Below, in pieces: positions 39,858-41,780 of a stretch of DNA of 64,000 bases. Where the stretch lies: contig OY282371.1 in the NCBI GenBank assembly GCA_958295715.1, forward strand, positions 1,311,183 through 1,375,182, in the 5' to 3' direction. The notes beneath the pieces are model-generated. The model saw nothing but the letters and a program-made list of their open reading frames with translations, made no database searches and was not told the origin of the DNA. This stretch comes from an uncultured Dehalococcoidia bacterium (GTDB lineage: Bacteria > Chloroflexota > Dehalococcoidia > Lucifugimonadales > GCA-2712585). Position numbers and translations under genes: made by a program. Each line of letters starts with the position of its first letter. Within the stretch, counting starts at the first letter, position 1.

Positions 39858-40127
39858 TTTCCGTCATCCCCGTCCCCCTTTCCGTCATTCCCGCGAAGGC
39901 GGGAAGGGCGCGTGCGCCCACTTCTGTTTTGAAGAGCGCTGATTCTGCATTGGCGGCTCTTGGCGGCGCCTCCTCTCCTATCCGCCATTCCCGCCTCCCC
40001 CCTTTCCGTCATTCCCGCGCAGGCGGGAAGGGCGCGTGCGCCCACGTAAGTTTCGAAGAGGGCTGGTCCTGCGTTGGAGGCTTCTGGCCCCACTATCCGC
40101 ATTCCCGCCGCCACCCCCTCCGTCATT
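39858..40127. repeat. dispersed palindromes, left of the IS110 insertion
   Basis: Several CCGTCATTCCCGCG-type elements, the last of which is cut after CCGTCATT at 40127 by the insertion sequence. The other half of that palindrome resumes at 41320. Confidence 0.87.
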
Positions 40128-40129
40128 TG

Positions 40130-40135
40130 TATGTT
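40130..40135 (+). promoter_or_regulatory. -10 half of the IS110 circular-junction promoter
   Basis: TATGTT two bases inside the left end. It becomes a promoter only when the excised circle joins it to TTGACT near the right end (41299-41304), giving a 17-base spacer. Transcription would then start about seven bases downstream, at the foot of the bridge RNA 5' hairpin. Confidence 0.55.
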
Positions 40136-40141
40136 GAAAAA

Positions 40142-40330
40142 GTCTTGTAGGGAGGCCAATCTACAAGACGGGCGCGGGGGGCGCGTCGGCCGTCATTGGG
40201 CGAGCGGCCCCCTGGGGTTCCGCTGCGCCGTGCGGGAGTAAGACACCCCCCGCGCCATCGTCAAGCCGCTCCGAAGGGATACACGGGCGTAGAGGCCCGC
40301 ATTTGCAAGTGCGGAGGGCGACGACAGTAT
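40142..40330 (+). ncRNA. candidate bridge RNA of the IS110 element
   Basis: Three structural units are readable. A 5' hairpin: GTCTTGTAG (40142-40150) pairs perfectly with CTACAAGAC (40161-40169). A target-binding loop is closed by an 11-bp perfect stem, 40171-40181 with 40246-40256. It holds CCGTCATT (40190-40197), identical to the left target flank, and GCGGGAG (40232-40238), complementary to the core and right flank. A donor-binding loop is closed by TCGTC/GACGA, GCC/GGC and CTCCG/CGGAG (40258-40273 with 40312-40324). It holds AGGGATAC (40275-40282), identical to the right end, and TGCAAGTG (40304-40311), pairing with TACTTGTA across the circular junction with two wobbles. The order matches IS110-group bridge RNAs. 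The 3' end is approximate. Confidence 0.8.
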
Positions 40331-40348
40331 AGCAGAGGAGGCCGGGAG

Positions 40349-41290
40349 ATGAGAGGGGCGGCGGGAATAGACGTGAGCAAGAGGGAATTGGCGGTGTCGG
40401 TGTGCGAGGGGGCGGTGAAGGGATTCGCCAACACCCCGGATGGGGTGGAGGAACTGCTGGAATGGCTCAGGATCCAGGAATGCCCCCGGGCGGTGTGCGA
40501 GGCCACCGGTGGATACGAGCGCGGGGTGGTGAAAGGGCTGAGGAAGGGTGGTGTGGAGGTGGAAGTGGCCCACCCCAACCGGGTGCGGGCCTTGGCGCGA
40601 GCCTTGGGGAAGGAGGCCAAGACCGACGGACTCGACGCCAAGGTGTTGAGCCGGTATGGGATGGCCTTCGAGTTGACCGGCGCCGGCGGGCTGGATGAGG
40701 AGACTGAGGCCTTGAAAGAGCTGATGGTCCGCCGCCGGCAGTTGGTGGAACAGAGGGTGCAGGAACGGAACCGGCTGGAGAAGGGGCTGAACGAGAGGAT
40801 GAAGAGGTCGGTGAGGCGGCACATTGGGTGGCTGGAGGAGGAGATAGCTGAACTGGACCGGGAGCGGGGCAGGATGCTTTCGAGCCACGCCGGTCTGGGG
40901 GAGCGGGCGGCCCTGTATCAGAGCGTGCGTGGGGTGGGAGAACTGACGGCCTGCGTGCTGATAGCCCACCTGCCGGAGTTGGGAGTGATAAGTGGGCGGG
41001 CCCTGACCTCCCTGGTGGGGCTGGCCCCCTGGTCCCGGGACAGTGGGCGGCAGCATGGGCGGCGGAGCATCCGTGGGGGGCGTTGGTGGGTGCGTCGGGC
41101 CCTGTACATGGCCGCGCTGTCGGGGATCCGGTGGGAGGGGGAACTAAAGAGGTTCTACGAGCGTCTGAAGCGAGGGGGGAAGCCGGGCAAGGTGGCCATA
41201 GTGGCGGCCATGCGCAAGCTGCTGCTGCAACTCAACGCCGTGGCCCGCCGTGGCGCCCCCTGGACGGAACAGCGCCCCTCAACCGTCTAA
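40349..41290 (+). CDS. IS110-family transposase (DEDD recombinase)
   Basis: 313 residues. The N-terminal RuvC-like DEDD domain has GIDVSKRELAVSV (first Asp), AVCEATGGYERGVV (Glu) and KTDGLDAKVLSRYG (two Asp). A coiled-coil region around residues 120-180 follows. The C-terminal transposase_20 domain includes VRGVGELTACVLIAHLPELG and LVGLAPWSRDSGRQHGRRSI with the catalytic Ser region. The ATG at 40349 follows GGAGGCCGGGAG. The gene appears intact. Together with the bridge RNA upstream it would recombine donor and target DNA. Confidence 0.93.
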   Translation: MRGAAGIDVSKRELAVSVCEGAVKGFANTPDGVEELLEWLRIQECPRAVCEATGGYERGVVKGLRKGGVEVEVAHPNRVRALARALGKEAKTDGLDAKVLSRYGMAFELTGAGGLDEETEALKELMVRRRQLVEQRVQERNRLEKGLNERMKRSVRRHIGWLEEEIAELDRERGRMLSSHAGLGERAALYQSVRGVGELTACVLIAHLPELGVISGRALTSLVGLAPWSRDSGRQHGRRSIRGGRWWVRRALYMAALSGIRWEGELKRFYERLKRGGKPGKVAIVAAMRKLLLQLNAVARRGAPWTEQRPSTV

Positions 41291-41298
41291 CCCCCCCC

Positions 41299-41304
41299 TT
41301 GACT
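41299..41304 (+). promoter_or_regulatory. -35 half of the IS110 circular-junction promoter
   Basis: TTGACT lies 15 bases before the right boundary (including the CT core). With the two bases TG at the left end, the spacer to TATGTT is exactly 17 in the circle. Confidence 0.55.
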
Positions 41305-41319
41305 TCTAACAGGGATACT

Positions 41320-41690
41320 CCCGCGCAGGCGGGAATCCATCTTCTCCCTTCTACTACACCACGGCAATGGCGCGAATCACGGTGGCCATCCCTTCTCTCC
41401 CCCTTCCCGCTATCCCCCCGTTCGCCATTCTGCGCCCCTTCCTATCCGCCATCCCCTCCCCCATTCCGTCATTCCCGCGAAGGCGGGAATCCATCCTTCT
41501 TACCGCCGTTGTGACAGGGCCACGAGGCAACGACGCGCCAAGGGTGGGCAGCGCCGACTAAGGGAGTCCCCACGGGATGACGCCGCAGTTCGGGGGCGTT
41601 GGCCTGGGATGTAGCCTTCCTGGATTCCCGCCTGCGCGGGAATGACGGAGGGGAGAGGGCGGGAATGACGGAAAAGGGGGACGGGAATGG
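41320..41690. repeat. dispersed palindromes, right of the IS110 insertion
   Basis: It begins with the second half of the interrupted palindrome (CCCGCGCAGGCGGGAATCC), followed by further copies near 41468 and 41625. No gene lies between the transposase and the promoter at 41781. Confidence 0.87.
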
Positions 41691-41780
41691 CGGGAGGAGG
41701 CGTTGGGGGTGACGGGAGAGGGGCGGCGGCCCGGCCATAACGGACCCGGCCCTTGCGGTCGGCAGCAATGCCGGGCCGCT

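Follow-up and report, generated by a model that had tools for sequence, protein, structure and literature searches.

The IS110-group insertion sequence IS621 of E. coli carries in its left end a bridge RNA built of a 5′ stem-loop, a target loop and a donor loop, and encodes a DEDD plus serine recombinase (PMC11208160, PMC11208158). Target choice by IS621 has been shown by experiment to be RNA-programmed (PMC11208160), the top strand is cut just after the core dinucleotide (PMC11208158), and a promoter formed at the circle junction is used (PMC11208160, PMC11208158). Bridge RNAs have been predicted in 85.7% of IS110-group elements (PMC11208160). Insertion into abundant extragenic palindromes (REP) is a long-known trait of certain IS110 elements, and ISPa11, ISPpu9, ISPpu10 and ISRm19 are specific for such repeats (PMC1525189). 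The IS1111 group belongs to the same transposase superfamily and likewise chooses its target through an RNA, the seekRNA, which lies in a long right end, and its elements possess subterminal inverted repeats of 7–17 bp (PMC11187229).

Within the window, a 64,000-nucleotide stretch of an uncultured Dehalococcoidia genome, positions 40142–40330, in the long left end of an IS110-group insertion sequence, almost certainly encode its bridge RNA. This reading draws directly on the observed anatomy of the RNA, its guide matches, the covariation of guides with flanks, the conservation of structure and four insertions in one repeat. The element resembles IS621 in the three-part RNA of the left end, in the order and polarity of the left and right target guides (LTG, RTG) and left and right donor guides (LDG, RDG), in its handshake guides, in an RDG with two flipped bases and a G·T pair, in a junction promoter (here predicted from sequence), in the type of recombinase and in a target that is a repetitive extragenic palindrome. 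It differs from IS621 in combining a target core TT with a donor core CT, where IS621 has CT in both, in an RTG of 7 nt rather than 4, and in its other guides, ends and target repeat, while the protein match to IS621 is at profile level only. With the REP-targeting elements it shares specific insertion into an abundant extragenic palindrome; hosts and repeats differ. It is well supported as a clear new example of the established bridge-RNA system and not as a new kind of system; since bridge RNAs are predicted in most IS110-group elements and palindrome-targeting members are long known, the find is not a surprising one. For the host, probably a SAR202-type member of the Chloroflexota, a literature search returned no paper that names SAR202 alongside both IS110 and insertion sequences.

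The insertion sequence spans 40128–41319 on the forward strand, as do its flanks, RNA parts, promoter hexamers and gene described below, beginning with TGTATG and finishing with AGGGATACT, the ends having been set by comparison of four genomic copies. Its recombinase (40349–41290, 313 aa) has the make-up of the IS110 family, an N-terminal DEDD (RuvC-like) domain (PF01548, E 1.8e-24) followed by a C-terminal Transposase_20 domain (PF02371, E 4.3e-15), both above cut-off, and the catalytic residues D8, E51, D93, D96 and S232 are invariant across 13 sequences. Compared with relatives of solved structure, ISCro4 (PDB 9t56, E 2.6e-37) is the closest by sequence, the likeness being one of recombinase sequence, followed by IS621 (E 8.4e-35); protein identity to the IS110s compared is about 40% or less. 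The layout is that of the IS110 group: the left end, in which the RNA lies, is long (221 bp precede the start codon), the right end is short (29 bp including the core, after the stop codon), and a core dinucleotide is present at both junctions. Membership of the IS1111/seekRNA group was rejected, as that group would have its RNA at the right, in a long end. No relatives of the element were found among viral contigs.

The RNA comprises a 5′ stem-loop of 10 bp (40142–40169, minimum free energy fold), a target loop (40171–40256) and a donor loop (40258–40324), in a region with a GC content of 73%. The sequence-only reading had described precisely this fold, and it is indeed recovered, the target loop being closed by 11 perfect pairs (40171–40181 with 40246–40256) and the donor loop by 13 pairs (5+3+5) with bulges. 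Across 11 members of the close family, compensatory changes affect 18 of 46 pairs, against 10.8 in shuffles (0/500 as high) and 6–10 in slid controls, and 91% of cells are paired, compared with 84% in shuffles. Covariation had been expected of both closing stems; it is strong in the target-loop stem (5/10 pairs), as in the 5′ hairpin (8/10), and modest only in the donor-loop stem (2/11), because the latter is nearly invariant. A covariance search, proposed earlier as a check, singles out the region: a model built from nine relatives, with the window element left out, gives one match in the 64 kb, at 40170–40323, covering both loops (104 bits, E 1.8e-18, the E-values of this model being rough). 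Over the whole genome its matches are the four copies only, and it reaches 9 of 22 distant IS110 loci. Rfam yielded no family at gathering score in the window, nor at E 1 in 40100–40360.

All four guides match DNA that is defined independently of the RNA fold by the element's ends and flanks. The LTG (CCGTCATT, 40190–40197) is identical at 8/8 positions to 40120–40127, the RTG (GCGGGAG, 40232–40238) complements CT-CCCGC at 41318–41324, and the LDG (AGGGATAC, 40275–40282) is identical at 8/8 positions to the right end at 41311–41318. The RDG had been placed at 40304–40311 (TGCAAGTG) and paired with the circle-junction sequence TACTTGTA; pairing with that junction holds, and the guide is better read as CAU(uu)GCAAG at 40300–40309, meeting CT-TGTATG with two bases flipped out and one G·T pair, an arrangement with precedent in IS621 (PMC11208158) and kept in most of the close family. 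Positions 40310–40311 (UG) then become the handshake guide of the donor loop, complementing target bases 6–7 (CA, 40124–40125), and its counterpart in the target loop (UA, 40239–40240) complements donor bases 6–7 (TA, 41316–41317), both assigned from sequence and the IS621 geometry (PMC11208158). With the ends fixed from the copy comparison, the ordered LTG-RTG-LDG-RDG match scores 29.8 of 31, and none of 20,000 dinucleotide shuffles reaches it (mean 15.2, maximum 24.6); a decoder free to choose the element ends recovered the identical four-guide solution. Taken singly, the guides are equalled by 32 (LTG), 69 (LDG), 319 (RDG) and 2,210 (RTG) of the 20,000 shuffles: the LTG, LDG and RDG are each significant by themselves, the RTG is not, and the weight is carried by the combination. 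The four matches reported from the sequence are thereby borne out at their positions, and the assertion that donor and target can be decoded from this one locus was right in substance. In two of the four copies (L003 and L004) LTG position 8, which faces the second core base, has changed from T to A with the target unaltered, which suggests that the pair at this position may be dispensable.

The target is a dispersed intergenic repeat of the host. The left flank, CCGTCA plus the left-junction core TT (40120–40127), is part of this repeat and common to the four copies except for the first bases in one, while the right flank (CCCGCGCAGGCGGGAATCCA, 41320–41339) is the second half of the interrupted repeat, as judged from copy comparison and repeat count. 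All four copies lie in it, preceded by CGTCA-TT and followed by CT-CCCGCG(A/C)AGGCGGGAATCC. The REP-like pattern CGTCATTCCCGCGNAGGCGGGAAT has 495 uninterrupted occurrences in the 2.4-Mb genome, divided about half and half between the strands, against none for the reversed-pattern control, and within the window it is found at 39865–40135 and 41318–41710. In 4/4 copies the core is TT at the left junction, derived from the target, and CT at the right junction, derived from the donor; its second T is invariant, as in IS621, and only the first base differs between the junctions. The RTG consequently meets an uninserted target through one G·T pair. These mixed-core insertions fit the strand-exchange polarity of the IS621 structures. 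A clean empty site was sought in two genomes of the same genus and none was recovered, the downstream gene being present without the element and upstream synteny being broken.

By analogy with IS621, the element would excise as a circle, with the junction sequence AGGGATACTTGTATG. Joining of right to left end would build a sigma-70-like promoter, TTGACT-17-TATGTT, from a −35-like hexamer in the right end (41299–41304), whose TTGA occurs at the matching offset in 40 of 70 relatives, and a −10-like hexamer in the left end (40130–40135), which come to lie 17 bp apart; transcription of the RNA is predicted to start near 40142. The bridge RNA would then bind the DEDD/serine recombinase, its target loop reading CCGTCA-TT-CCCGC, with both strands used, and its donor loop reading AGGGATA-CT-TGTATG at the circle junction. 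By cutting the top strands immediately 3′ of the core and swapping them, the recombinase would place the element in CCGTCATTCCCGCG(N)AGGCGGGAAT, a repeat of which this genome has about 500 copies. We infer that the RNA is transcribed and bound by the protein, that cleavage takes place and that the element is still active. Alternatively, the RNA may be a genuine bridge RNA of an element that is now inactive, with old copies that are no longer mobile. The genome contains four copies, of which the other three are 97% identical in DNA to that of the window; this divergence of 3–4%, together with the occupation of only 4 of about 500 sites, speaks for inactivity, but a stop-free open reading frame, the ends, the guides and the junction promoter are retained in 4/4 copies; loss of mobility is possible but less likely than not.

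If the guides specify the target, relatives in other targets are expected to carry other guides, and this expectation was confirmed in the close family, in relatives at 52–60% amino-acid identity from the same order as the host. Guides were read off fixed alignment columns and flanks were permuted, with one relative (L152), whose left flank fits its LTG poorly, left out. Agreement between LTG and own left flank averages 7.35 of 8 positions, compared with 4.75 for permuted flanks (0/100,000 permutations), and that between RTG and own right flank 6.79 of 7, compared with 4.34 (12/5,040), the elements being treated in both cases as independent, which they are not quite. The 12 permutations are exactly those which swap identical targets, that is the permutation minimum, and a shift by one column in either direction abolishes the signal. 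Individual members illustrate this: L165 has the RTG CTCGCAG with a right flank CT-GCGAG (matching site TGTCATT-GCGAG), L150 the LTG GGGACACT with a flank GGGACA-CT, and L069 and L161 the RTG CGAACAG with a right flank CT-GTTCG, the site matching the L069 guides being TGGCAACT-GTTCG. In 70 more distant IS110s the match to the own flank also exceeds that to permuted flanks (z 7.3 left, z 10.4 right; 0/20,000 each); for this set ends were fixed by donor motifs only, blind decoding with a free left end having given many wrong ends.

The same series bears on whether the recombinase protein itself picks the target, the likeness of RNA and target being a by-product of common descent or of earlier insertions. 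Two relatives from other genera, L162 and L164 (56–58% identity), use the target repeat of the window element and share its guides, retaining protein similarity and target alike as this explanation would have it; L069, L150, L161 and L165, however, differ in target at similar identity and track their RNA guides base by base, which, with the IS621 experiments (PMC11208160), makes protein-chosen targeting highly improbable. Accidental target-guide matches, in a left end that merely holds pieces of an abundant repeat and whose fold is that of ordinary GC-rich noncoding DNA, draw on the 495 repeat copies, the 73% GC and the frequency of the RTG in shuffles, but are rejected as next to impossible: in relatives whose targets are not repeats, the same alignment columns hold other guides, which fit the flanks of those relatives; the LDG and RDG fit the ends of the element rather than the repeat; the pairs covary more than in shuffles and slid controls; and the held-out model finds the region. 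The element shows one locus to be enough for reading the IS110 bridge-RNA code, here in a lineage that has received little study, and shows the code to predict the landing site. In the close family the targets have changed and the donor ends have stayed constant, which makes it a natural reprogramming series.

Two members of this series are inserted into the bridge-RNA genes of other elements. L069 (element at about 432–1650) and L161 (about 1280–2480), from different genomes, each interrupt another IS110 element within its donor-loop DNA, splitting GAACAGTTGCC of that element's left donor guide. Beside each of them, and oppositely oriented, lies the transposase gene of the interrupted element, whose product has 69% and 82% identity, respectively, to an IS110 protein, and the LTG and RTG of L069 and L161 specify the donor-guide site they occupy. 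Two loci of the L069 genome carry near-identical sites without an interruption. When 250 genomes were searched for the exact junction, the single additional match (L189) read as unrelated coding sequence, and the insertions into donor guides therefore rest on two cases. The subfamily has probably been reprogrammed repeatedly with its donor ends kept, the window branch towards the 500-copy repeat (target core TT, donor core CT) and the sister branch of L069 and L161 towards the left-donor-guide motif of other IS110s, disabling their guide RNA. If general, the latter would amount to RNA-guided hyperparasitism between transposons.

Some further loci were observed beside these series. The left flank of L152 (AAGTAACT) matches its LTG (TGACAACT) poorly, and its bridge RNA is nearly identical to that of L151; L152 may have inserted off target, or the end of its contig may be misassembled. 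Two bridge-RNA-like loci (L158 and L160, on contigs C3 and C62 of genome G433) match their own left flanks with the LTG at 6/8 and 7/8 positions and have no transposase gene obviously downstream, and are possibly truncated elements.
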